A stretch of DNA of 64,000 nt from Chaetoderma sp. LZ-2023a (taxonomy: Eukaryota > Mollusca > Caudofoveata > Chaetodermatida > Chaetodermatidae), in NCBI GenBank assembly GCA_034401795.1, contig CM067372.1, forward strand, positions 35,962,351-36,026,350, given 5' to 3'. This document shows positions 3,074-58,972 of this stretch, piece by piece. The position numbers were made by a program, and so were the translations under genes. The notes beneath the pieces are model-generated. The model had not been told where the DNA came from. It made no database searches and worked only from the letters and a program-made list of their open reading frames with translations. Positions within the stretch are counted from its first letter, which is position 1. Each line of letters begins with the position of its first letter.

Positions 3074-3484
3074 AATGGACCTTTCCAGTTTTAGCTTTGC
3101 CCCCGCCCATCTCTAGCTAAGCTCCACCCACACCTCGCTCATGTTGGGATCGATCGATCTCTGAACTTCCTGACTATCAATTTCCAGAAAACTGTTCAGG
3201 TAAGCTGTTAAATTTTTTTAACTAATTTGACTGGGTGCTGTTGCTGCCTATGACAGCAACAGCGCCCAGTTAAATTAGTTTCAAAATATTCAACAGCATG
3301 TTTATGAAATATTAGAGACATAGAATTCTTACAACATGTCAGACTTTTAAGAGCTAAAGACGGGCGTATATATATATATATATATAGAATCATTTATGAC
3401 GTAATGATTACGACGTCATCAATCACACCACTTAGCTGATTATCATGTCATATGACATCAGACGATACTCTGGAAAGGTGAATT
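3074..3484. mobile_element. MITE family A, full copy
   Basis: It starts AATGGACCTTTCCAG and ends CTGGAAAGGTGAATT, an imperfect terminal inverted repeat. Order of parts: a GC-richer arm with TAGCTAAGCTCCACCCACAC and GGATCGATCGATC; palindrome C at about 3206-3297 with the stem GCTGTTGCTGCC / GACAGCAACAGCGCC; a (TA) tract at 3367-3387; then an arm with GACGTCATCA and TATGACATCA before the right end. Similar copies lie at 20.6, 27.0 and 33.2 kb. No protein is encoded, so mobilisation would need another element's transposase. Confidence 0.85.
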
Positions 3485-9190: not shown

Positions 9191-9195
9191 CTGTC

Positions 9196-9478
9196 AATGG
9201 ACCTTTCCAGATTTTGCTATGCCGTGCCCATATCTAGCTAAGCTCCGCCCCTACTTTGCTGTGTTGGGATTGATCGATCCCCGAATGCTTTAACTATCAA
9301 TTTCCTGAAAACTCTACAGGTAATCTGTTGAATATTTTGTAACTAATTTGACTGGATGCTGTTGCTGCCATTTAGTAAAGACATACACTTCAAATATGCA
9401 TTCATGACGTACTTATCTATGTCATACATGATGTCATTCATTATGATGTCATTCTACACGTCGCATAAGAGTGATTAA
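9196..9478. mobile_element. MITE family A, internally deleted
   Basis: Left end AATGGACCTTTCCAG, then the AGCTAAGCTCCGCCCC arm, TTGGGATTGATCGATCCC, and the left half of palindrome C (CTGTTGAATATTTTGTAACT to GCTGTTGCTGCC). The right half of the palindrome is lost: the sequence jumps to TTTAGTAAAGAC and the ATGACGTACTTATC / GATGTCATTC arm. No clear right terminus. Confidence 0.75.
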
Positions 9479-12019: not shown

Positions 12020-13345
12020 GGTATATACTCAGGTGAGAGTTCTCTCACAAGAGACAGCATCTCCTGGCTCCTCCTAGCTAGGATGCATACTCATTCAGCT
12101 ATCTCACAGAAGACAGCATCTGGCTTCTCATATAAGCATCATCCCCATTCACCTCTCTCACAAGAGAAACCATCTCCTGCCTCCTCATATATGTATATGC
12201 ACCATACCTTTGCAGCTTTTTCAAAGGACACAGCATCCTCCTATCAGCTCCACACTCATCTGGCTCTCTCACAGGAGACTGCATCTCCTGTCTCCACCTA
12301 GCTAAGCTCCATACTCATTCAGTTCTCTTACAGGAGTCTCATGGATCCTCCTAGCTAAGCTCCATACTCATCAAGCTCTCTCACAGCATTTCCTAGCTCC
12401 TCCTATAAGCTCCATACTCATCCAGTTCTCTCACAGAATTCAGCACCTCCTATAAGCGCAATACCCATCCAGTTCTCACACAGGAGACATCACCTAGCTC
12501 CTCCTATAAGCTCCATACTCATCCTATTCTCTAACAGGAGACTGCATCTCCTAGCTCCTCCTATAAGCTTCATACTCATCCAGTTCTCTAACAGGAGACA
12601 CCATCTGCTAGCTCCTATAAGCTCCATACTTATCCAGTTCTCTCACAACAAAAGACATCTCTTAGCTCCTCCGATATGCTTCAGTCATCAATTTCTCTCA
12701 CAGAAGACTGCTCACCCTAGCTAAGCTCCATACTCATGCAGCTCTTTCCTAGGCGACATCATCTCACGGCTCCTCCTATAAGCTTGGTACTCATTCAGCT
12801 TTCTCACAGGTGACAGCATCTCCTGGCTCCTCTTATAAGGTACATACGCATCCAGTTCTTTTACAGAAATCTGAGCACCTCCTATAAGCTCCATACTCAT
12901 CCAGTTAATCTCACAGGAGACAGCATTCCTAGCGCCTCCTATAAGCTCCATACCCATCCAGTTCTCCCACAGGAGACAACATCCTCCATGCTACTATAAG
13001 CACCATAGTAGACCATACTCATGCAGCTCTTTCATAGGTGACAGCATCTCCTTGCTCCTCCTATAAGCTCCATACTCATCCACTTCTCTCACAGGAGACA
13101 GCATCTCCATGCCCTTATAAGCTCCATAGTAGACCATATTCAATTACTCATGCAGCTCTTTCACAGGTGACAGCATCTCTTGGCTCCTTCTATAAGCTCC
13201 ACACTCATCTAGTTCTCTCACAGGAGACTGCATCTCCATGCTCCTATATGCTCCATAGTATACTATACTCATGCAACTCTTTCATAGGCAACATCATCTC
13301 CTGGCTCTTTCATAGGCGACAGCATCTCCTACATCCTACTACAAT
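12020..13345. repeat. Minisatellite of about 57 bp, about 22 units
   Basis: The unit reads TCTCTCACAGGAGACAGCAT, CTCCTAGCTCCTCCTATAAG, CTCCATACTCATCCAGT, with unit length wandering between about 45 and 60 bp. It stops about 100 bp before the DIRS element. Open frames over it are incidental. Confidence 0.9.
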
Positions 13346-13497
13346 ATCTTTAATTGCCAGAAATTATATATAGTTCGGGAGGCCTCACAGAGAAGAATGT
13401 GTCTGAGTGATACCCAAAATTCTTCTTCCGCCTGAAACCTCCCACAGACCCCCCTTCCGGGTTGGTCTGTACTCTCATTAACCACTATAAAACATAC

Positions 13498-13785
13498 TTA
13501 CTGTTCAATCACTACTTGCTAAATCAACTAATCTGCATTTAGCCACCAGAATAAGATTTTTATGCTTGCTTACATTCCTCCTTATGCCTATTCCATATTA
13601 ATATATACCCTCAAACAGGCTACTGGTAGGGTCCACCCCCACCCCACCCCCCACCTCCTATATAACCTGATAAAGACTGGCACCAGTCTGTACTCACTCC
13701 CTGGTGACGCCTGTCACTAAGCATGCCTGCGCATGCGCATTGGAGCCCAAATAGGAAATAGATTCACTTTTCTAAATTTAAGTGT
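13498..13785 (+). repeat. DIRS left inverted terminal repeat
   Basis: Shares, in inverse orientation with 20275-20530, TAGCCACCAGAATAAGATTT, TTATGCCTATTCCATATTAA, GACGCCTGTCACTAAGCATG and CCAAATAGGAAATAGATTCA. It is longer than the right copy because of C-rich and GCATGCGCATGCGC insertions. Confidence 0.9.
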
Positions 13786-13845
13786 CAAATATTACAAACA
13801 GATTCTCAAATCATTCCCACGCGGGGTGGTTGAGGCCAGATCATA

Positions 13846-13970
13846 GTGATTGAACAGTAAGTATGTTTTATAGTGGTTAATAAAACTACAGACCAACCAA
13901 CAAGGGGTGTCTGTGGGGGGGGGGGGTTGTTATTACACCACAAAAACATCCATTACCGTTCAATCACTAC
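13846..13970. repeat. DIRS internal complementary region (ICR)
   Basis: The left half (13846-13916, from GTGATTGAACAGTAAGTATG to GTGTCTGTGGG) is the complement of the left tip (13441-13511) with scattered mismatches. The right half (about 13927-13970, TTGTTATTACACCACAAAAA to CAATCACTAC) is an exact complement of the right tip (20504-20550) over about 44 bp. A G-run of about 13 marks the junction. In DIRS elements this region is thought to template joining of the two ends into a circle. Confidence 0.92.
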
Positions 13971-14199
13971 TTGCTAAACCCGTAGATTTGGTCAGTGCCC
14001 CACTTAAACCATTGGTGGGTGGAGATTTGAGAATCCATAAACAAGGATAAAAATTAAACAAATCATATCCAAATGTTAATAACATAACATAAAAGTGCAC
14101 CTTAATCAATCACACCGTGATTATCAAATAAGGAAAACTTTAAACTTAAAGAAATAAATAAAAACCAAAGAAAACTCTCACCATTTCTCACAGACGCAC

Positions 14200-15195
14200 T
14201 TAACGAAAATGACGGAATGTGCTTGGTAAATGGTCTTCGGCTTTTTTAGTTAAAATCGTGATATTACAAAAAAAGGAGGCTGCTGCACTCTGATCCTTTA
14301 AATAAAATGAAGTAAAAGTGGATTCAGATTTCCAGCCTGCAACCTGCATGACTTCGTCTAAAGAAGAGCCAGCGAAAAGAGCAAAGGAGGTAGCCATTCC
14401 CCTAACATCGTGAGCTTTTATATGAGAAAAATTAACTTGTTAAACAAAGTTTGATGGTCTCACAAATCCAACTGACAATCGTACCCTTAGAGACTGGTCT
14501 GGCTACCTCATCCCCATACGGAACCCATAAATGGGATGGATCAGATCTTTTAAAATTGGTTCGTTGCTTGTAAACCTTTAATGCCCTGACAGGACACCAA
14601 TATTTGTCAGATGGCGAAAAAGAAAATAAGAATTTTAGCAGGGAAGTGGTTAGACTGTGTCTTTGATAAAAAATCTCTTCTGGGATATAAGACTAAACCG
14701 TCCCCAGATACGATAAATCTGTCCTTTTCAGTGGAAAGAGCATGAATTTCTGAACGTCTTCTAGCGGAAGCAGAAGCAACAAGAAAAACAGCTTTAAGAG
14801 TTAAAAGTTTAATACTAATAGAAGCAAGAGCCAAGAGGTTCAAAATGGCAGCCTGCCAAAACCTGAAGAACCAAGGCCAAATTCCAGGAAGGCAAAGGCT
14901 TAGCTACTGGAGGACGAATATTGCCCAATCCTCTGATAAAACCATTAAGAATCTTCATATTCTTAATGTGAGCATTCAAAAGACAAGGAAGAGAAGATGC
15001 CAAAGAAACTCTATAACCCCTGACTGTGCTAGCAGATAACTGTAAAGAATCAGAGATAGGATAAAATATCTAACACCTGGGGAAGAGAAAGAGAATCGGG
15101 CACAAGATCATGTTCTGAACACCATTCTCCAAAAATTTTAAGTCGACCCTTGTAAACTCGACGGGTCGACTCCCTCCTGGCAGAATCAATAATCT
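14200..15195 (-). pseudogene. DIRS tyrosine recombinase, frame-broken
   Basis: Integrates the circular DNA copy of the element. The N-terminal core-binding part begins near 15190 (ARRESTRRVYKGRLK, then FGEWCSEHDLVPDSL). The catalytic part has the first Arg in ASARRRSEIHAL (about 14750), then CPVRALKVYKQRTN (about 14590), HDVRG (about 14400, the His-Arg pair), GWKSESTF (Trp in place of the second His, common in this group) and the nucleophile in TSFYLKD (about 14300). All catalytic residues are thus visible, but spread over different frames with breaks near 14435, 14620, 14850 and 15030. It lies just upstream of the ICR, as in other DIRS elements. Confidence 0.9.
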
Positions 15196-15291
15196 CCTGA
15201 GATCTTGAAGAAACTTTGACCTAAGGGATTTGATGCTTGAAATCCTCCAAACACACAGGCTGAAGATTTATGGGTTTGGATGAAGACACGT

Positions 15292-17400
15292 TCACCTTAT
15301 TTGAGAAACTGGAAGATGAGGGAAGTCTACCAGGAGATCGAGAAGATTGACAAACCAGATCCGTTTTGGCCAAAAGGGAGCTATCAGAGCAATTTCGCAG
15401 AACTGGTCCCTGACCTTCTTCAAAACCAAAGGAATCAGGATCATTGGATGGAACGCATAAGCGAACATTCCTGTCCAGGACTGAGACAACGCCTGACTGT
15501 CCGGAAAAGGAGACATCAAAGAGGAGATCTGGGCATTTAAACAAGTCGCAAACAGATCTACGTGGGGACAATCCATGAGATTGAAAATCGCTCTGGCAAC
15601 TGACCTCTTTAACTGCCACTCTGTGTGGGCGAATTTGCTGGGCCGAGACAGTTGGTCCGCAAGAAAATTCAGAGTGCCTGGGACATGAGAGGACACAAGA
15701 AAAATCTGATTCTTGTGGCATCATAAGAGGTCCCAAATATCCATATAAAGGAGAGAGGATCTCGTTTCCCCCTGTCTGTTGATGTAAGAGACTACCATCG
15801 AATTGTCCGATCGGATCAAGATTTTGATGCCCTTTAATCAATCCGACCATGCTTGGGGAGCCTTCTTGACAGCCCACAATTCCAAGATGTTGATATGAGC
15901 TGTCGACTCCTTCAGTAACCAAAGACCTGAGACCGACAGGGAATCCCAGACCGCTCCCCATCCCTCCTGGGAAGCGTCTGTAAAGATAATCACCTGAGGG
16001 GAGGACTTGACCAGAGGGACGCCCCTCAGAAGCAGAGAACGATCTTTCCAAAAAATCTAGATGAGGAATTAAATGATCTCTTATGGGAATCTGAAGATAA
16101 ATGGAGTGGATTGACTGCTTCCATAGGGACATCTGAAAGGGTCTTCTCATCAGCGCCGCCCAAGGAATGACACTCTCGACACTGATCATCAAGCCTATCA
16201 CTCTCAGGAAGAATCTTGCTCTGACCAAGGGAACAGATGACAGAATGTCCATAGCTAATAAAATTGCCGCTACTCTTGGATCCGATGGAAAGACTAAGCC
16301 CTGAGCCAGATCAAAAGAAATGCCTAGGTGCGTGAAGACTTGAGAGGGAACTAGACTTCATTTCTTTAGATTTAAGATCCAACCTAGGCTGCATGCAAGA
16401 CTGCAGACCTCTGGAATGAGTTTTGAAAGAATTGAGGAGGATTTTGCTTTTATTAACCAATCATCTATATAAACATGAAAATGGATAGAACGACGGTGCA
16501 GGATTACTGCCACAGCTGAAACTAGACGAGTGAAGAGGAAGGGGGGCCATGGTCAGGCTGAAGGGCATGGGCCGCATGGCTTGGAACTGCCATACCCGAT
16601 CCTTGTAGGCGAACCTCATGAACTTTCGGAAAGACTGGTGAATAAGGACATGGAAGTAGGCGTCCTTGAGATCTATGGAGGAAGTCCACATGCCTGGATC
16701 TAGACTGGCGATGAACTTTGGGGTTAAAATAAGGAGGTTCACCTTTTTTAGATTGATGATAGGATGCCAACCTCCTGTTTTCTTGGGAACTAAGAAAATG
16801 GTTGAGTAGTAGCCCGGGTCTACACTCCAAAGAGGAACCTCTTCTATGGCCTCCTTGCTAATCATGGACTCCAACTCCTCCTCTAGGGCCACCAACTTCT
16901 CCAGATTGGAAGGAACTGGAGTCCACTTGGGGATAAGAGAAAGATGAGGATGATGAAGGATCCAAGGTGCATAACCCCAGTGAATCTGATTTAGGAGTCC
17001 TGAACGCGGGAATGCCAAGTCTCCCAGAACAGAGATATGTGCCCTCCAACTGGCAAGCTGGGAAGAAGGCACTGAACTGATGGATCGGAAGGCAGAAGAA
17101 GAGGAAGGGAAGAGATTGAAAGAGGACAAAGGGCTGGACCTACCTGGGTGGTGGCCACACCCTCAAACTCTCTGAGATTGAAAACCTCTGAAAGATAACC
17201 AACCTCTATACCTTGAACTAGGTTTGTAAAAATAAGCTTGGCCCCCTCTCGCTCTATGAGCCGGAGGTTGCCGAACCTTGGATCTAGAACGGTGGGTTGA
17301 GATAGAATCAAAACAATCCTCCTCCATGGATCGATCTTGGAAGTTAGAAGATCTGTTAGAGTTATTAACTATCCTGGAAGGATAAGCACCAAATTCATCA
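15292..17400 (-). pseudogene. DIRS reverse transcriptase-RNase H, frame-broken
   Basis: Copies element RNA into DNA. RT fingers: GYYSTIFLVPKKTGGWHPI (about 16800). Palm: SSIDLKDAYFHVLIH (about 16670) and then, after a frameshift at about 16560, the catalytic YIDDWLIKAK (about 16475). Beyond it, THLGISFDLAQGL (about 16330) and SVPLVRARF (about 16240) form the thumb. RNase H acidic residues appear in IFTDASQEGWGA (about 15985), INILELWAVKKAPQ (about 15880), IRSDNSMVVSYINRQG (about 15810) and LNFLADQLSR (about 15655). The tail reads CPHVDLFATCLNAQ and APFWPKRIW. There is a TGA stop between the LEL and RSDN motifs and a frameshift near 16030. The start is unclear; RT-like sequence is continuous from about 17400. 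Confidence 0.93.
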
Positions 17401-17419
17401 GGCCTGAGACTCTTCCTCC

Positions 17420-20047
17420 TAGGGGAGGAATTGGGACTCTTAACAGAGGAAGTCTCTTTTCACAGAAGGTTTAGAGAGAGAAATCTGAGCGTAAAGATCC
17501 TTAGAGGCTCTTAGGCACTCAGACTCTGACCGAATAAGACTAGAAGATGACTGGCCAAAGATATCCTGGCCGAAAGAAGGAGCTGAAATAAGAATACTCT
17601 TAAGTTTATTCAAAATATTCACCTCAACAAGCTTCCTAGACCTTCTCTTTGATGTAATAAAACCTAAAGGTTTGCAAACGGAGTTAAGAGAACCTCTAGA
17701 AACATCGGCCAAAGAATGAAAACCCTCAACAGGGACCTGCTCACCTCTCTCTTGAGCCTTAAGAACAGCTTCTGAAAGCAACGCAAGAAAATTTGCCGAC
17801 TGAAGCTGTGATCTGCCCACACAGACTCACACTTAAAAAGATCAGAAGAGGGCTAAACCTTAGAAGAATCCTTTAAATGAGAAGAAAGAACTTCCCAGGA
17901 AGGACCAGAGAGAGATTGAGGAGTGGCAACTCGCAAATAATCGTCCTTTGGAATCTGGATGAGAGCATCAAATTTGGGAGTAAGAGAAAATTCCTTACAA
18001 TGAACATCGTTCACAAAGAAATCTAACATGACAACAACCAAATTATCAACTGGTAGGATCTGAGGAGACAAAGAAGAAGAATCGGAAGATGAAAAAGCTG
18101 ACCCAAAAGAAGGAGGGTCTATAGAAAATTTGTCCTTAAGAGGAAGAGAAAGAGTAGAAGCAATCCGCCTATGAGCCAGTCTTCCAAAGAGGCCCTGACC
18201 GAACAAAACCTCTTCAGATCCCTGGCCCTGACCGATTCAGGAATTGAAGAAATAGAAGAAGTATTAGGAGAGGAAGAAGAAAGATGACGAGAAGAGTTAC
18301 TAGAGGCCAGAGATTCAACAGTTCTAGAAGAAAGAGGAGAGCAAGGCCTCCTAGATGCTTGAAGAGAAGAAACAGGAATAGAATCAGAAAAAGATGAAAA
18401 TTGATCAGAAAGAATGGGGTCAATAACATTATCCTGACCAGAAGACAAGGGAAAATGAATCAGGCCACTAGCTGAAAACCTCGAAAGAATGGAAAAATGT
18501 GCCAACATGAAAGAACGATCAAGGGAAGGATCCCTAGCCACAGAAAACAAGGAAAAATCCAGACCTGAATCAACAATTTGAAACTCTAACTCAGAGGAGA
18601 GAACAACAGAAACAATCGGGTCACGGTGATTGAAGGAAGAGGAAGCAGAAGAGGATGAAGGAGGAAGAGACGAATTAAGATGAATGGAAGAAGAAGAGGA
18701 AATAGCAGGATCTGAATATCCATGGAGAGAATTGATAGAAGGAAGACAGGAAAACCCCGAAGGAGGCGGGATAGAGGATGACTGAAAAAGAGAAGAGTTA
18801 GAAACATGACTAGAAGAAAAATCATTTGCTGAAAGAGAAGAGGAAGAAGGCAGAGACCTATGACCTTGAACTTGAGAGGAATGAGAAGGCGGGAGCCTCA
18901 CTTCAGAAGAACTCAAGACTGCATCACAAAAAGAGCGAGCAAAAGAACCGGAAGCCGCTTCAACATTAACTACTTGAGAAGGGGACTGAGATCCTAAATC
19001 CTGACCTAATTGATCACGAAGAAAATAAGTCAGAAACTTCAATAGGACAAGAAGGAGATAAGCCAGAGATAACAAAATTCCTATCTACAGAAACCTGACT
19101 CCTATCCACCAAATGCGAGTCCGAAAAATTTAACCGACAAGATGAGGAACCTGAAAGACCGGGAAGCTCTTGACCGGAAACGTAAACTCTAATCTTAGGA
19201 GAAATGGAAAATGGAAGTGGAAGTTGAGGCTGGGATAAGGCCCTAGCCAGATCTGGAAGACCATGGTTATTGACTATACCGGAAGTTTCATCAAAACCGG
19301 ATGCTTAGCCGAAGCTTTAAGACCCGGAAGTGCACCCCTCAAACTGGAAGCGGAAGAGTAAAGACCGGAATCCAAAATGGAAATGGAAGGGCGCCTACCG
19401 GATGTCCTGAAAAACTGGAAGTCAAACCGGAAGCGGAAGAAACAGAAATGGAAGCCGGAAGTAGACCCGGGTCCTGGAGACCCGAATCTACTAAGCACAA
19501 ACCGGAAGTGCTTGAAAAACCGGAAGCTACCAAACTTCCTGACTGCATTAAGCTAGACACAGGCAATCCTTTAACGTTCCTGGCTACCAGTATGACAGAA
19601 CACTTGACGTTGGCATAGGCATTATGGCCGGGGACTTCAGTCGCCGACACCACTGCTTGAGAGTAATGCCCCTCCTCAAGACACATGTGTATTTTACCCG
19701 GTGACCTGCTCGAGTTCACCTTCGAGAGCCTCTTCTTTGAGTCTCTAATTTTCTGTTTTGGTGACAGAATCTCCTGTCTAGACGTGAGGGAAGTAGGCGA
19801 TATTCGCTTATCTAATGATTTCGTCAAGACAGTCGCAAAAGACTCAAATCTAGCAAAAAGAGCTAACACGGCATCGGAATTAGCCGAAGAGGTTTCCCCC
19901 CCCCCCCCCCCCGTTGCTGGTGGATTAGATACAGAAGAATTAGCAAAAGACACAGCTGCTTTAGACTTAGAAGCAACAGGGGGGGGTTGTGAATAACAGG
20001 CTCCTGTAGTAATAGAGGGTTTGAAATGATGATGATGACTTAGGCAT
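17420..20047 (-). pseudogene. DIRS Gag-like ORF1, Ser-rich, frame-broken
   Basis: Ser-rich open frames fill this interval: 19339-19953, 18119-19075, 17853-18206 and 17440-17820. The last includes SADVSRGS-like and APSFGQDIFGQSSSS stretches of the kind that precede RT in DIRS elements, so I read the whole as one decayed ORF1. An ATG occurs at 20045-20047. The frame is interrupted by homopolymers: 8 C at about 19979 and a run of about 17 G (minus strand) at 19896-19912. No zinc knuckle seen. The function, probably a nucleoprotein, is inferred from position. Confidence 0.65.
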
Positions 20048-20274
20048 ATTAATGTTAACCACGAAAATGAGATACATCACGAAAACCGGTAACATTTTTA
20101 TACAGAGTATAAAAATCAATAAAACCATGAAATACTCCATTAACATAACTTAGGGAGGATTGACTTCATATTAGGCATTCCAAGGATTGAAAAACTCTCA
20201 AAATAGTAAGCTGACACAGCCAAAGCTATAAAAAAAACTTAGCTGGAAAATTTTGCAGTTGTTCTGCTTGCAGA

Positions 20275-20530
20275 ATAATTGAAAAGTGAATCTGTTTCCT
20301 ATTTGGGCTCCAATGCGCAACCACAGGCATGCTTAGTGACAGGCGTCACCAGGTGCCAGTCTTTATCAAGTTATATGCTGGGGGTGTACCCTAGCAGTAG
20401 CCTGGTTGAGGGTATATATTAATATGGAATAGGCATAAGGAGGAATGTAAGCAAGCATAAAAATCTTATTCTGGTGGCTAAATGTAGATTAGTTGATTTA
20501 GCATGTAGTGATTGAACGGTAATGGATGTT
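20275..20530 (-). repeat. DIRS right inverted terminal repeat
   Basis: Inverse copy of 13498-13785: TGAATCTGTTTCCTATTTGG, CATGCTTAGTGACAGGCGTC, TTAATATGGAATAGGCATAA, AAATCTTATTCTGGTGGCTA. Its outer tip (20504-20550) is copied exactly in the ICR. Confidence 0.9.
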
Positions 20531-20628
20531 TTTGTGGTGTAATAACAACAATGGATTGAGTGAGTCTGGAAAGGCAAGTCTCTGAACGGATCCTGGGAAA
20601 GGTTTAAAATTAGATACTTTTAGAAGCT

Positions 20629-21020
20629 AATTCACCTTTCCAGAGTACCCACCCACCATATGACATCATAATGAACTGTGTGATGTGTACAATGACATCA
20701 TAATGAATGACTTCATGAATGACGTCGATAAGTACGTCACGAACGCATATTTGATGACGGTCTATGGGCTGTTGTACAAATTGTTTGCTTTTACTATTTA
20801 ATAAATATTCTGTTGAATATTTTGAAACTAATTTGACTGGGCACTGTTGCTGCCTATCACCCAGTCTAATTAGTTACAAAATATTCAACAGCTTCCCTGT
20901 ATAGTTTTCAGGAAATTGATAGCTAGGGCATTTGGGGGTCGATCAATCCCAACACGGCGAGGTGTGGGTGGAGCGTAGCCAGTGATGGGCGGGGCATAGC
21001 TAAAAATGGAAAGGTCCATT
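20629..21020. mobile_element. MITE family A, full copy (inverted orientation)
   Basis: Starts AATTCACCTTTCCAG and ends GGAAAGGTCCATT. The CRE-like arm comes first (ATATGACATCATAATG, GACGTCGATAAGTACGTCAC), then palindrome C at 20809-20893 (CTGTTGAATATTTTGAAACT / AGTTACAAAATATTCAACAG), then GGTCGATCAATCCCAACAC and GTGGGTGGAGCGTAGC. It lies 79 bp beyond the DIRS right tip. Confidence 0.88.
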
Positions 21021-26953: not shown

Positions 26954-27338
26954 AATTCACCTTTCCAGTTTATCCATCGATCATCCGACATCATAATTAA
27001 CTAAGTGACGTGTGTGATGACGTCATAATCATTGCGTCATGAATGATTCGATATAGTCCGTCTTTAATGCTTAATAGTCCGACACATTGTTCAAATTGCA
27101 TGTTTTTACTACTTAGTAAACAGTATGTCGAATATTGTGAAACTAATTTGACTGGGCACTGTTATAGGCAGCAACAGCACCCAGTCAAATGTGTCAAAAT
27201 ATTCAACAGCTTACATGTATAGTTTTCTGCCAATTGATGGTCAGGGGTTCAGAGATTGATTGATCACAACACGGATGTGGTGTGGGTGGAGCTTAGATTG
27301 AGATGGGCGGGGCATAGCTAAAACTGGAAAGGTCCATT
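26954..27338. mobile_element. MITE family A, full copy (inverted orientation)
   Basis: AATTCACCTTTCCAG at the left, CTGGAAAGGTCCATT at the right. CRE-like arm with GACGTGTGTGATGACGTCAT. Palindrome C at about 27128-27213 with GGGCACTGTTATAGGCAGCA. Then GATTGATTGATCACAACACGG and GTGGGTGGAGCTTAG. Confidence 0.88.
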
Positions 27339-33171: not shown

Positions 33172-33573
33172 AATGGACCTTTCCATTTTTAGCCATGCCC
33201 CGCCCATCACTAGCTAAGCTCCACCCACACCTCGCCGTGTTTGGATTGATCGATCTCCGAATGCCCTAGCTATAAATTCCCTGAAAGCTATACAGGGAAG
33301 CTGTTGAATATTTTGTAACTAATTAGACTGGGTGCGGTTGTGCCATAGGCAGCAACAGCGCCCAGTCAAATTAGTTTCAAAATATTCAACAGAATATTTA
33401 TTAAATAGTAAAAGCAAACAACTTGTACAACATCCCATAGACCGTCACCAAATATGCGTTCCTGACGTACTTATCGACGTCATTCATGACGTCATTCATT
33501 ATGATGTCATTGTACACATCACGCAGTTCATTATAACGTCATATGATGGGTGGGTACTCTGGAAAGGTGAATT
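33172..33573. mobile_element. MITE family A, full copy
   Basis: AATGGACCTTTCCATTTTTA at the left; CTAAGCTCCACCCACACC arm; palindrome C at about 33302-33392 (CTGTTGAATATTTTGTAACT / AGTTTCAAAATATTCAACAG) with stem GCCATAGGCAGCAACAGCGCC; GACGTACTTATCGACGTC and ATGACGTCATTC arm; right end CTGGAAAGGTGAATT. Confidence 0.9.
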
Positions 33574-33587
33574 AGTAAGAAATGTTC

Positions 33588-38159: not shown

Positions 38160-39850
38160 CATACACCTGTGAGTACACTACCAACACCATAGAAGTTCTC
38201 AAAACAACCGAACTAGGTATCTTGATGACCCTGTAGTAGTAAAACTATCAGCAGAGCAGAAAGTGATACAGCTGCACATCTATCAAAGTGTCCAAAGTGA
38301 TGACCGCACCAAACTACGCAGTGCGGCAGGGAACGCAATAACATTCTGCGCCACATACATCAGTGATGGCTTAAAAGATCCTGCTATTTAACAAGCAGAC
38401 TCCCTAGCAGTTGAAACTACTGCCATGGATGACTGCCACAAACTGTTTCGGGCAGCCCGATCCCTGAGAGTTACTAACCACACACCACCACCGACTGTAC
38501 ACAGCTCTGAAGGGCACTATCGGTACTGACCAGGGCAAAGCCGAGGCAATTCGAGAATGGATCAAGGAACAGTTTACTGACCACGTTCTCAGGAGACCGC
38601 AGGCCATTACTAACTCCAATTAAAACAGCAGAAGTTGAAAAGCACACAATGCTCTGAAAGATGGACGTAGAAATACGCAAGTGACATTGTCTCAAAACCG
38701 ATCAGGCACCTAATCAATTCAGCTTTTATGCACCACCTTCTCACTGATGCTGTAGGCCAAGGCACCCTTATCGCGCTAGCCAAGCCCAAGAAGCCACCTA
38801 CACCCACCACACCCCAAGCCAATCTGCGTTCCATTGTGCTCCTCAACAGCAGATATATGGTAACTCCTATCCAATGTTACTCTATGTCGCATTTGAGACG
38901 AAATCGATGACTTCAAAGGATAATGCCAAAGTGGCTTTAAACGTGTTTGTAGCTGCCCATACACTGTATGGGCTCAAGGCATGCTTGTGTTGGTAGTCAT
39001 GTCTAAACACTAGGATTTCCACAAAATGGGAATTGGCATGTCATGAGCCTTGGACACAATTAAGCGCTCAAAGATCCTAGATGTACTACGTCAGGCCAGT
39101 TGCAATGAAGATGAGCTATGACTAGTGTGGCTACTACTTGCAGACACCAAGCTGAGAGTACGACTCATGCCAGTGAATTCTGCAGTCTGAGACATCAATC
39201 GGCTCGTCACAGGGAGATGGTCTATCTCCTGTGCTTTTCACCTGCTACCTTGCTGCTACATTGAAATCCGTGCTGGAATCTTCCACAAGATCAAACCCCA
39301 GTGTCAATACTGGGTATGCCACTATAGATGGAATATGCCGACGATGTGGACTTCATAGACGAGGAAAATAAACCCATTCACGAACTTCTCTCAATTCCTG
39401 CAAGCATACTTATGAATGAATCCAAAACAGAGTTCACTAACATATACATATCTACAAAGCAAGAAACTAAAGAAAATGTCGATCCACTTCGTGGCGGCGA
39501 ACCATGGAGGAAAAGTAAAATCCTGGGCTCACTGCTTTGCAGTACTGCTAACATTTCTGCACGCTGCGTCATGGGGAACATAGCTTTCCAGTCCTTCTGG
39601 AAGCTATGGATTCGTAGATCAAAGATGCCCTTGATAAGGAGGCTACGTTTATACAATGCAACCAGCGTATTCTTGATGCTGTATAACTGTAACAGCTGGG
39701 CAGCTTCAAAGGCAGCTCTAGACAAACTCGATGCCTGCCACCGCAAACACCTACGCACCATCACTGGACACCGATGGCCAGACAGCATAATTTCCAACGA
39801 TGTACTATACAAGATGTGTAACACGTCGCCGCTGTCTGTAAAAGTAAAAA
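38160..39850 (+). pseudogene. RTE-like non-LTR element copy 1: RT with YADD, no endonuclease
   Basis: The sequence from about 38190 aligns by eye with copy 2 (55450 onward). Readable pieces in shifting frames: MDDCHKLFRAARSLRV, QGTLIALAKPKKPPTP, NLRSIVLLNSRY (about 38830), KRSKILDVLRQASCNE, the catalytic YADDVDFIDEENKP (about 39334), then GNIAFQSFWKLWIRRSKMP, LDKLDACHRKHLRTITGHRW and SDVLYKMCN-like C-terminal sequence. At least six frame breaks or stops. The 3' end is cut at about 39847, where family B sequence begins; no endonuclease precedes it. Confidence 0.85.
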
Positions 39851-39933
39851 ATATTTTTCTTGGCCTGCAAATGGACATTCAATAAGCAAATATTTGGATT
39901 TTCTTGACCACATTTAGTCATTAAAGAGTTAGT
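39848..39933. mobile_element. MITE family B, right half
   Basis: TTCTTGGCCTGCAAATGGAC, TTCTTGACCACATTTAG and CATTAAAGAGTTA; fused to the 3' break of the RTE-like copy. Confidence 0.75.
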
Positions 39934-47175: not shown

Positions 47176-47495
47176 ATTAACCTTTCTATCAATCTTACGT
47201 CATATGACGTCATATTCAGCTAAATGGCGCGTATGCTGACGTCATAAGCATTACATCATAAATTATTCTATTCAGCTCCTCTATTACTCTTAATAGTCCG
47301 ACACGTTGTAAGAATTGTATGTCTCTACTATTTAATAAACATGCTGTTGAATATTTTGAAACTAATTTGACTAGACGCGGTTGCTGCCATAGGTAGTCAG
47401 AGAGTTCAGAGATCGATCGATCCCAAACACGAGCTAGGTGTGGGTGGAGCTTAAATAGAGATGGGCGGGGCATAGCTAAAAATGGAAAGCTCCAT
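47176..47495. mobile_element. MITE family A, right palindrome arm deleted
   Basis: ATTAACCTTTCTATC at the left; CATATGACGTCATATTC and GCTGACGTCATAAGC (two full CREs); CTGTTGAATATTTTGAAACT to GGTTGCTGCCATAGG without the partner arm; GATCGATCGATCCCAAACAC; GTGGGTGGAGCTTAAATAG; GGAAAGCTCCATTAA. Confidence 0.83.
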
Positions 47496-47717
47496 TAACC
47501 CCTTACTGGTGAAGGAAAGCCCAATCTCTGCTTAGTTTAGGTTCATGTGCACATCAAGAGCTAGGAGTATTATGCAAAATGTGTTTCCACCGGATCCTGT
47601 AACAGAGTCAGTCATTCCAGAAGCAAAATTAAACAAAATATCTTTCTCTTGACCTGCAAATGGACATTTCTCAAGACCCGCTGCAAAGGCTGGTTTTGTC
47701 CTAAATAAAGGGTTAAT
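47494..47717. mobile_element. MITE family B, decayed left arm
   Basis: TTAACCCCTTACTGGTG, CAGAGTCAGTCATTCCAG, CTTGACCTGCAAATGGACAT, TTCTCAAGACCCGCTGC, AATAAAGGGTTAA. It abuts the family A copy, sharing the TTAA. Confidence 0.75.
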
Positions 47718-53579: not shown

Positions 53580-53812
53580 CTTCACCCATCAAATTTGTTC
53601 CAGAAAACCTGAATTTTCTCAGGGAAAATGTTCATTTGCAGACCAAGAGCGGATTATTTAAAAAAAAATGTACTACTGGAATGATTGGCTCGATTATCGA
53701 GCCAATTATTCCAGTCGTAAATTTTCAAAAATAGTTTTCTCTTGGTCAATGGACATTTCTCAAGACTACTGCAGAACACGTTTTTGCGATTTTGGAGTGT
53801 TAAATAGTTATA
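53580..53812. mobile_element. MITE family B copy
   Basis: CATTTGCAGACCAAGAGCGG, hairpin CTACTGGAATGATTGGCTCG / ATCGAGCCAATTATTCCAGTCG, TTCTCTTGGTCAATGGACAT, TTCTCAAGACTACTGCAG. Confidence 0.82.
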
Positions 53813-54359: not shown

Positions 54360-56530
54360 CAAGGATTATGTCTACCCTTCTTCAAATAAGAAACTGTGCT
54401 CGACATCCTCGGACGACGCAATCTTCCCAGGAGCTTACCATAGCTACGTAGAATGTACGTGGTCTGAGTGCAACATCAAAGAGGCAAACCTTAGGTGCAG
54501 ACTGTGAACACTATAACATCGATGTTGCATGCATTCGAGAGACTAAAGTAACTAAACACTCAGAGCAGCAACTACAGACAGGCTATAAGCTCGTGCTCAT
54601 GGAGCAAAAACAGGCCACATACCGGGGCTTAGGCTTCGTAATCGGACGAAGGGTCTTGGTTCATGTCATTAGCTTTGGATACGTCAGTGATCGCGTTGCA
54701 TTCATCGACCTGGCGAAAACACACCACGACTAAGTGTCGAATTGTCAACGCATACGGCCCAACTACGGAAAAAGCCAAAGAGAATCCAGCAATATTAGAT
54801 TCCTTCTATGCAGAACTGAGCTCCGCCATTACACTCCCAGCTAGATGGCAACTGTTCGTGTGTGGAGATTTCAACTTCAAGCTGGGTAAAATCGGAATTG
54901 CGGACAAAAGTTCAGGACTTGGCTTATGCATGGGATCCTATGGAGAGGGCACACGCAACAGCAATGGAAATGTTCTGGTGGCATTCCTTAGTTCCAATGG
55001 CCTATTTGTCACAAATACGGCTTTCAAACACCCATGCCGTCACCGGGCAACTTGGACTGGACACATTACTGATCGCAAAGTCCCAAAAGGTTCTAGGGCT
55101 ACAACAGCTGTCTTCAACCAAATAGACTTCATACTATGCAAGACAGAAGCGAAACCCTTACTCCGGAACGCTCGTTCGTATTGAGGCACAGACCTCAATT
55201 CTGACCATAAGCTAGTCATTACATGCCTTCAGATGAACAGTCTCTACCTAATATATAAACACCATATCAGGCAAGAGGGTAGAGTCATATACAACCTACC
55301 CAAGCTTATCAGCGACTCTGACACTCAAATATCATTCAAAAAAGCCCTTGGGGAGCAGATAGCTAACATCGATGTCAGCTCCGATCCAAACGAAGCCCTA
55401 CCCAAATACTGAAATCTATGGAGTCATCCGCTGCCAGCACCATAGCTGGTCTATAAAACTACCAAACTAGGTATCCTGACGACCATCTGGTAGTAAAACT
55501 GTCAGCAGAGCAGAAAGCGTTATGGCTGCGCATCTATCAAAGTGGCCAAAGTGAAGACCGCACCAAACTATGCCAGGAGCGCAATATTATTCTGCGCCAC
55601 ATTAGCAAACGCTTAAAAGATCTTGCTATTCAACAGGCAGACTCGCTAGCAGATGAAATCACTGCCATGGATGACTGTCACAAAATGTTTCGGGCAGCCC
55701 GAGCCCTGAGAGTTACTGACTACACACCACCACTCATAGTACACTACTCTGAAGGGCACTTTATCGGGAATGACCAGGGAAAAGCCGAGGCGATCCAAGA
55801 ATGGTTCAAGGAACGGTTCACTGACAACGATGATGAGCCCTTGCACCCGTTCTCAGGAGACCACGGGCCATTACTAACACCAATTAAAACAGCAGAGGTT
55901 GAGAAGGCCATGGAGGAAAAGTAAAATCCTGGGCTCACTGCGTTACTGCTGACATTTCTGCACGCTGCATCATGGGGAACATAGCTGTCCAGTCCTTCTG
56001 GAAGCTATGGATTCGTAGATCAAAGATGCCCTTGATAAAGAGGCTACGTTTATACAATGCAACCAGCGTATCCTTGATACTGTATAACTGTAACAGCTGG
56101 GCAGCTCCAAAGGCAGCTCTAGACAAACTCGATGCCTGCCATCGCAAACCCCTACACACCACTGGACACCGATGGCCAGACAGCATAATTTCCAATGATG
56201 CACTATACAAGATGTGTAATACGTTGCCGCTGTCTGTAAAAGTCGCCCAGCAAGGATGGACCATGTTTGGCCATGTGCTAAGAATGCCAGAAGAGCCAGC
56301 AAATGCAAAGCCAGGAGAGGAAGTCATTGCATAAATCTGCTAAGCGTGCTACGAGGTGACTTCAAGAAAGCAGGTCTCGGTACACTCAAGTCAAGATTGG
56401 ACCTGAGGAAACTAAGGATTTCGGCTGAGGACAAGACACAGTGGGAAAAAGCGAAGAAGGACTGATTGCAGCTGTAGGATGTTTCTACTACTACAGCCGC
56501 AGAATACAGTAATCATACATACTTGTTCTT
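54360..56530 (+). pseudogene. RTE-like non-LTR element copy 2: endonuclease plus C-terminus, RT core deleted
   Basis: APE-type endonuclease, 54440-55235: the WNVRG motif with the Trp codon mutated to TAG, VACIRETKVTKHSE, VNAYGPTTEKAKEN, LFVCGDFNFKLG, FVTNTAFKHPCRHRATWTG, QIDFILCKTEAKP and NSDHKLVITCL, so the nicking domain is almost whole. Linker 55480-55924: one open run with MDDCHKMFRAARALRV and IQEWFKERFTDND. At about 55915 it joins directly to the C-terminal part (GNIAVQSFWKLWIRR, LDKLDACHRK, FGHVLRMPEEPANA, TLKSRLDLRKLRI), skipping about 860 bp present in copy 1, including YADD. The 3' end has a CTGTAG...CTACAG hairpin near 56480-56500. Confidence 0.9.
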
Positions 56531-56600: not shown

Positions 56601-56764
56601 TACAATTGCCTTAGAGCTGAGATTATGTGGTGTTAGCGCTGCATGGGTTAATTATAGTACAACTATGTTACCATAACAAACATTCTCTAACCACCGGATA
56701 GTGCCTATTTAAGATGAATAACTCTCTCTTAGGGAACCACAATTTATTGTCCCCAAAATAAAGG

Positions 56765-56892
56765 TGGTATCTTCAAGCCCGTCATTCCAGTGGTGAACTT
56801 TTAAAAGTAATCTTTTATTGAAACGCAAATGGCCATTTCTCAAAACCATTGCAGAAGCGGCGTTTGTCTGGTTTGGCCATTAAAGCATTACG
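56765..56892. mobile_element. MITE family B, right half
   Basis: AAGCCCGTCATTCCAGTGGT, AACGCAAATGGCCATTTCTC, CATTGCAGAAGCGGCG, TGGCCATTAAAGCATTA. Confidence 0.7.
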
Positions 56893-57589: not shown

Positions 57590-58972
57590 AAGATGTGCCC
57601 CATAAAGATAGGTGGCCTCCTGATAGAGGGACATCACACCTAGACATACCCCTGCAATGATACCATATCTGGTGGCCTCGTGATAGAGGGACATCACACC
57701 TAGACGTACCATTGCAATGATACTATATCTGGTGGTTTCATGATAGAGGGACATCACCCCTAGACGTACCACTGCAATGATACCATATCTGGTGGCGTCC
57801 TGATAGTGGGACATCACCCCTAGACGTACCACTGCAATGATACCATATCTGGTGGCCTCTTGATAGAGGGACATCACACCTAGACATACCACTGCAATGA
57901 TACCATATCTGGTGGTCTTCTGATAGAGGGACATCACACCTAGACGTACCACTGCAATGATATCATATATGGTGGCCTCCTGATAGAGGGGCATCACCCC
58001 TAGACGTACCACTGCAATGATACCATATCCGGTGGCTTCCTGATAGAGGGGCATCACACCTAAACGTACCACTGCAATGATACCATGTCTGGTGGCGTCC
58101 TGATAGAGAGACATCACCCCTAGACGTACCACTCAAATGATACCATAGCTGGTGGACTCCTGATAGAGGGACATCACACCTAGAGATACCACTGCAATGA
58201 TACCATATCTGGTGGCGTCCTGATAGAGGGGCATCACCCCTAGACGTACCACTGCAATGATACCATACCTGGTGGCCGCCTGATAGAGGGACATCACACC
58301 TAGACGTATCACTGCAATGATATCATATCTGGTGATCTCCTGATAGAGGGACATCACATCTAGACATAGCACAGCAATGCTACCATATCTGGTGCTCTCA
58401 TGATAGAGGGACAGCGCACCTAGATGTACCACTACAATGATACCATATCTGGTGGTCTCCTGGTAGAGGGACAGCGCACCTAGACATACCACTGCAATGA
58501 TGCCATACCTTGTGGCCTCCTGATAAGCGACATCACCCCTAGACGTACCACTGCAATCATGCCATACCTGGTGGCCTCCTGATAGAGGGGCATCACCCTA
58601 GACATACCACTGCAATGATACCATATCTGGTGGCTTCCTGATAGAGGGACAGCGCACCTAGATGTACCACTGCAATGATGCCATACCTGGTGGCCTTCTG
58701 ATAGAGAGACATCACCCCTAGACGTACCACTGCAATGATACCATATCTGGTGGCTTCCTGATAGAGCGACAATAAACCTAGACGTACCACTGCAATGATA
58801 CCATATCTGGTGGCGTCTTGATAGAGGAACATCACCCCTAGATATACCACTGCAATGATACCATATCTGGTGATCTCCTGATAGAGGGACAGCGCACCTA
58901 GGCGTACTACTGCAATGATACCATATCTGGTGGCCTCCTGATAGAGGGACAACGCACCTAGACGTAAGTGAA
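57590..58972. repeat. 60-bp minisatellite, about 23 units
   Basis: The unit CACTGCAATGATACCATATC, TGGTGGCCTCCTGATAGAGG, GACATCACACCTAGACGTAC repeats at a strict 60-bp period; single-base indels near 58524 and 58600 shift the phase. Variants CAGCGCACC versus CATCACCCC alternate in blocks. Minus-strand open frames read a 20-residue repeat (GIIAVVRLGVMSLYQEATRY) but break at the indels. I treat them as incidental. Confidence 0.95.

Follow-up and report, generated by a model that had tools for sequence, protein, structure and literature searches.

The 64,000-nucleotide stretch of the Chaetoderma sp. LZ-2023a genome analyzed here (GenBank assembly GCA_034401795.1, contig CM067372.1, positions 35,962,351 to 36,026,350 of the forward strand; hereafter the window) carries a segment for which a preliminary description had proposed a structurally near-complete DIRS retrotransposon at 13441-20550. 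This locus raises the question of whether the segment is indeed a DIRS element with both of its ends preserved, and of what such a copy is worth as a reference for its lineage. Our analysis revealed a minus-strand insertion that is almost certainly an inactivated copy of a retrotransposon of the DIRS1-like type (order DIRS). The whole element spans 13436-20549 (7114 bp, 5' end at 20549), with limits set by its terminal repeats and internal complementary region (ICR) and an edge word of exactly AAC; these limits agree with the earlier coordinates within 5 bases. Reverse transcriptase (RT), RNase H, a methyltransferase (MT) motif, tyrosine recombinase (YR), ICR and 3' repeat follow one another in this order on one strand. 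All element features below are given in window coordinates and lie on the minus strand.

Terminal repeats, internal complementary region and circular junction

To delimit the element, the left (5') inverted terminal repeat at 20277-20543 was aligned with the reverse complement of the right (3') inverted terminal repeat at 13477-13778; the element 5' terminus itself starts GTTGTTATTA at 20549. Gapped local alignment gave a score of 366, with 252 of 304 columns identical (gap columns counted); 200 single-base shuffles of one of the two sides scored 31 at most. A repeat search returned three inverted pairs, namely 13498-13641 with 20379-20522 (144 nt, 96%), 13700-13772 with 20281-20353 (73 nt, 95%) and 13660-13684 with 20352-20376 (25 nt, 96%). 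Within the ungapped blocks 11 of 242 positions were substituted (two right-arm bases being counted in two blocks), and two short stretches of the right repeat were absent from the left. Outside this alignment lies the 3' tip of the element at 13436-13476, which is complementary to the ICR and corresponds to the right extension as defined in section 10 of PMC3266345.

The ICR consists of two parts. The left part (13926-13978) was complementary to the 5' tip at 20497-20549 in 52 of 53 positions (98%; score 101, one mismatch), and the right part (13844-13920) was complementary to the 3' tip at 13438-13514 in 69 of 77 positions (90%; score 114, eight mismatches). The maximum scores in 200 single-base shuffles were 25 and 26, respectively. 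Two of the features on which the preliminary description had relied, the inverted repeats and an internal region complementary to both outer tips, were therefore borne out by alignment, and with them the description of the element as structurally near-complete.

The two ICR parts meet at a circular junction (13915-13928), where AAC in the element sense (13926-13928) is followed by a run of 12 C; in the 3' tip the corresponding C run is shorter. In the element sense the 5' tip reads GTTGTTATTACACC and the 3' tip ...CTGTGGGAGGTT, with the ICR reading ...TAATAACAACCCCCC...CACAGACACC, so that the AAC at which the ICR parts meet is complementary to the GTT found at both tips. Read on the window strand, the outer edges carry AAC at both ends and no longer common word, and thus there is no target-site duplication beyond AAC. 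A 12-base word, GTTCAATCACTA, is common to both repeats and both ICR parts. The sections of PMC3266345 used here describe this anatomy for DIRS elements: the circular junction measures 3 bp, most elements carry a right extension, integration leaves no target duplication, and a short word of at least 10 bases is conserved across both repeats and both ICRs.

According to the published model for the family (PMC3266345, section 3, for circle formation and recombination), the element RNA would be reverse-transcribed, the two tips would pair with the ICR parts so that the ICR bridges them into a circle joined at the 3-bp AAC, and the tyrosine recombinase would insert this circle at an identical AAC trinucleotide of the host, leaving no target duplication. 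Circle formation and recombination may have been the route of the present element as well. Its anatomy fits the sequence-level predictions of the model that could be checked. A search of the window for an empty site gave none: joining the flanks produced 54 match rows, and none of these spanned the junction by at least 5 bases on each side.

The repeat pattern also separates the element from PAT-like and Ngaro-like elements. PAT-, Ngaro- and VIPER-like elements have RT, RNase H and YR in common with it, but they show another repeat arrangement in the part of PMC6681497 consulted, with PAT carrying split direct repeats and Ngaro and VIPER something similar, whereas the terminal repeats here are inverted and accompanied by a two-part ICR. 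Section 3 of PMC3266345 further gives Ngaro and VIPER as lacking the MT. The sole direct self-match at E ≤ 1e-3, 36 bases between 13489-13523 and 13943-13978, arises from the ICR together with the repeats. Reading the segment as PAT-like or Ngaro-like, with split direct repeats, is very unlikely to be right, and we retain the DIRS1-like reading.

Coding regions and their decay

To examine the coding capacity of the DIRS1-like element, the translated pieces were compared with protein profiles and published motifs. The RT region (16361-17162) extends over two frames and contains DLKDAY (16656-16673), PMPFSL (16554-16571) and the YIDD that the preliminary description had noticed (16460-16471). 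RVT_1 matched two pieces that lie in different frames but are collinear: one covers profile positions 1-99 (E = 0.0022), the other 127-188 (E = 3e-5), and both matches stay under the curated cut-off. When the RT piece was compared with the PDB, the best sequence matches were RT chains of human immunodeficiency virus 2 (E = 0.003-0.004), among 16 sequences down to E = 1, the last of which was an unrelated deacetylase. The RNase H region (15643-16056) contains the expected acidic residues, with its motifs in order: FTDASQEGWG (FTDAS at 15970-15984), NILEL (15877-15891), RSDN (within 15724-15840) and ADQLSR (15643-15660). It is interrupted by two in-frame stops and gave weak profile matches only (RT_RNaseH_2, E = 0.058; RT_RNaseH, E = 0.12). 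An MT-like region follows at 15295-15642, with DLFAT at 15544-15558 and APFWP at 15367-15381.

We also searched for five of the pol motifs given in PMC2685390, which in the part used calls LGFLIN, DLFAS and ASKSGWG specific to DIRS1-like pol. All five were found in order on the minus strand, as PMPFSL (16554), YIDD (16460), ASQEGWG (15955), ADQLSR (15643) and DLFAT (15544). With one or two mismatches allowed, and with limits chosen after the motifs of the element had been seen, none of 300 first-order Markov simulated strands contained the five in order within 1300 bases. Single motifs did occur by chance in these 300 strands (RMPFGL-like in 199, YLDD in 248, DLFAS in 154, the other two in 24 and 10), and the plus strand of the element contained one of the five, YLDD. 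Three further motifs, LTTDAS, LGFLIN and IRLHCD, were omitted from the test and checked afterwards; LTTDAS was matched as IFTDAS.

Tyrosine recombinases carry the motif pattern R, HxxR, W, Y. In the YR region (14203-15220), which is made up of pieces in all three frames, the preliminary description had recognized R...HDVR...W...Y, and these residues were recovered in order: RRRSEI within 14610-14903, HDVR at 14401-14412, WKS at 14326-14334 (W at 14332-14334, 26 codons after the H) and Y at 14302-14304. Alongside RNase H and MT, a different frame stays open for 378 codons (15224-16357) and overlaps both. None of 500 first-order Markov simulated strands reached 378 open codons, the maximum being 247, and we infer that this frame represents the end of the RT together with the overlapping part of the YR open reading frame (ORF). 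Two frames open over one stretch fit the long pol/YR overlap that PMC3266345, in the sections used, reports for half of 28 elements.

The Gag-like ORF is the weak point of the preliminary description. Open stretches in three frames, serine-rich at 18119-19075, occupy the right place at 17443-20076, and calling this region putative Gag is a guess from its position.

Several results weigh against the DIRS1-like reading. No PDB match at E ≤ 1 was found for the YIDD piece alone. LGFLIN agreed in three of six positions at the expected place (LGWILN, 16370), no better than dozens of other words across the three frames; IRLHCD, which has been described from shrimp elements, had no match in the element with two or fewer mismatches. 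The MT piece gave profile matches at chance level (DMRT-like, E = 0.14, and others), and its single-sequence predicted fold was useless (mean predicted local distance difference test score 41.5). The Phage_integrase matches of the YR were weak and confined to the profile end (E = 0.074, positions 125-169 of 172; E = 0.046, positions 125-166), and a PHROG integrase match was weak as well (E = 0.026); unrelated families scored nearly as well on the YR piece (terminase PHROG, E = 0.067; Ig_GlcNase, E = 0.18), and the piece with RRRSEI matched DUF2016 only (E = 0.042). In the Gag region, three pieces had no Pfam match at E ≤ 1 and the 318-amino-acid ORF had none at E ≤ 0.01.

An alternative reading is a chance or composite arrangement, in which a piece of a retrotransposon and a piece resembling an integrase had come to lie within an unrelated inverted repeat. 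The window is rich in dispersed repeats, and these often form inverted pairs (380 pairs, 25 of them listed). Against such a composite, comparing the element with the remainder of the window gave no match at E ≤ 1e-3, the domains lie on one strand in the order of the family, and one internal region matches both tips, with its parts meeting at a trinucleotide that is also present on both outer edges. We consider a chance assembly extremely improbable, and the DIRS1-like class of the element was confirmed as far as it was testable.

The genes of this DIRS1-like copy are broken in many places. Pieces of the pol region occur in all three frames, and stops interrupt it at 16358-16360, 15838-15840 and 15721-15723; the YR pieces pass through frames 1, 2, 0, 1 and 2, with a stop at 15221-15223. 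On our reading, in which the assignment of pieces to proteins was partly inferred, pol and YR together contain no fewer than six frame changes and four stops in frame. As the frames are broken, the copy is taken to be inactive, and it is most probably unable to make proteins of its own. That the element is still active and its frames broken by sequencing or assembly errors is extremely improbable, even though a single mismatch in 53 positions separates the 5' tip from the left ICR part, given this number of frame changes and stops and the substitutions and one-sided stretches that also separate the two terminal repeats. Taken together, these data describe an element that is near-complete from end to end with broken genes, an ordinary genomic fossil of a well-known kind.

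Relationship to known elements, length and frequency

Published descriptions, rather than sequences, were used to compare the element with GaDIRS1 and GaDIRS2 of Gasterosteus, TnDIRS1a of Tetraodon and SkoDIRS2 of Saccoglossus (PMC3266345, in the sections used, Table 3 for junctions and tips). All four share with it the AAC junction, the GTT start and a right extension only. The 3' end is GTT in the element as in GaDIRS1, GaDIRS2 and SkoDIRS2, which therefore have GTT/GTT tips, whereas TnDIRS1a has GTT/GAT. A long ORF overlap is common to the element, GaDIRS1, GaDIRS2 and TnDIRS1a, with none listed there for SkoDIRS2. The four are shorter (5322-6283 bp versus 7114 bp), as are their right extensions (26-27 versus about 41) and right ICR parts (56-65 versus 77). 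DIRS-like families of Xenopus have the same order of gag, RT/RNase H/MT and YR, inverted repeats, a two-part ICR and an overlap of ORF2 and ORF3, but differ in their TTT tips, their length of 4146-6224 bp and inverted repeats of about 120 bp (PMC9210276, in the part used). DIRS1 of Dictyostelium likewise has inverted repeats, an ICR, a right extension, RT-RNase H-MT and YR; it differs in that the YR is counted as the second ORF, and DIRS1-2 has TTA tips and 3793 bp (PMC3266345). Relatives were also sought in other collections: three pattern scans of a viral contig collection returned 5, 29 and 30 stretches and a scan of prokaryotic genome contigs with the MT piece returned 25, none of which were confirmed, and tblastn of the 233-amino-acid RT piece against phages gave no match. 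These misses say little, because the collections are viral and prokaryotic and the element is of animal type.

The length of the element is its one mild oddity and also counts against the DIRS1-like assignment, since 7114 bp exceeds the 3793-6283 bp of Table 3 of PMC3266345 and the 4146-6224 bp of the Xenopus set. About 3.1 kb lie between the RT and the 5' repeat (17163-20276). Local repeats do not explain the excess, because the inside of the element has no match elsewhere in the window at the threshold given above; tandem repeats within the element are short ones only. Membership of a DIRS1-like lineage with a long Gag is conceivable and rather doubtful, and old insertions in this single copy would explain the 7.1 kb as well.

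The preliminary description had also held that DIRS copies are uncommon to find whole and that this one could serve as a reference for its lineage. The rarity was overstated, because thousands of well-conserved copies are already in print: PMC3266345 reports 4310 putative copies with recognizable RT, MT and YR across 32 species, two of which were later given as PAT only. In favor of the earlier view, this count, as set out in the sections used, does not demand intact ends, and the same source gives intact copies in Daphnia as only 19 of 218, so that intact ones can be a minority. Use as a lineage reference is not supported, at least for the proteins, because both pol and YR contain many breaks and only its position identifies Gag.

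Surroundings and meaning of the copy

Within the right flank of the element lies a dispersed repeat that contains a hairpin (20627-21020; hairpin arms 20810-20841 and 20860-20891), begins 77 bases from the element and looks like a family of the miniature inverted-repeat transposable element type. Its relatives include 33172-33575 (93%, inverted), 26954-27338, 3074-3336, 9195-9465 and 47305-47496. On the other side, a degenerate tandem array of ~54-57-nt units (12043-13330) stops ~100 bases from the element 3' end. A further dispersed repeat of ~86 nt and longer has 18 listed copies with an identity of at least 60% (4526-31176, 53677-53762, 56753-56838), and inverted pairs were also seen between stretches related to it. 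A 60-nt tandem array at 57611-58966 (22.6 copies, 87% matches) has one frame open over long stretches. At 54663-55184 a match of endonuclease-reverse-transcriptase type (Exo_endo_phos_2, E = 0.00095, below the cut-off) probably marks a fragment of a long interspersed nuclear element, and the peptides of the ORFs at 39328-39885 and 55972-56334 look alike by eye. Outside the element 26 ORFs have at least 110 codons' worth of amino acids, and a Pfam search with eight of them gave one weak endonuclease match. Scans of the window with Rfam (gathering threshold) and for tRNA genes gave no matches.

Thus, the ends, ICR and junction of one DIRS1-like copy have been fixed to the base, with little meaning beyond annotation. 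Relatives of the host offer a test of the predicted insertion site, with the flanks joined at a single AAC. Some fish and acorn-worm elements share the AAC/GTT signature, which may help to place the family.

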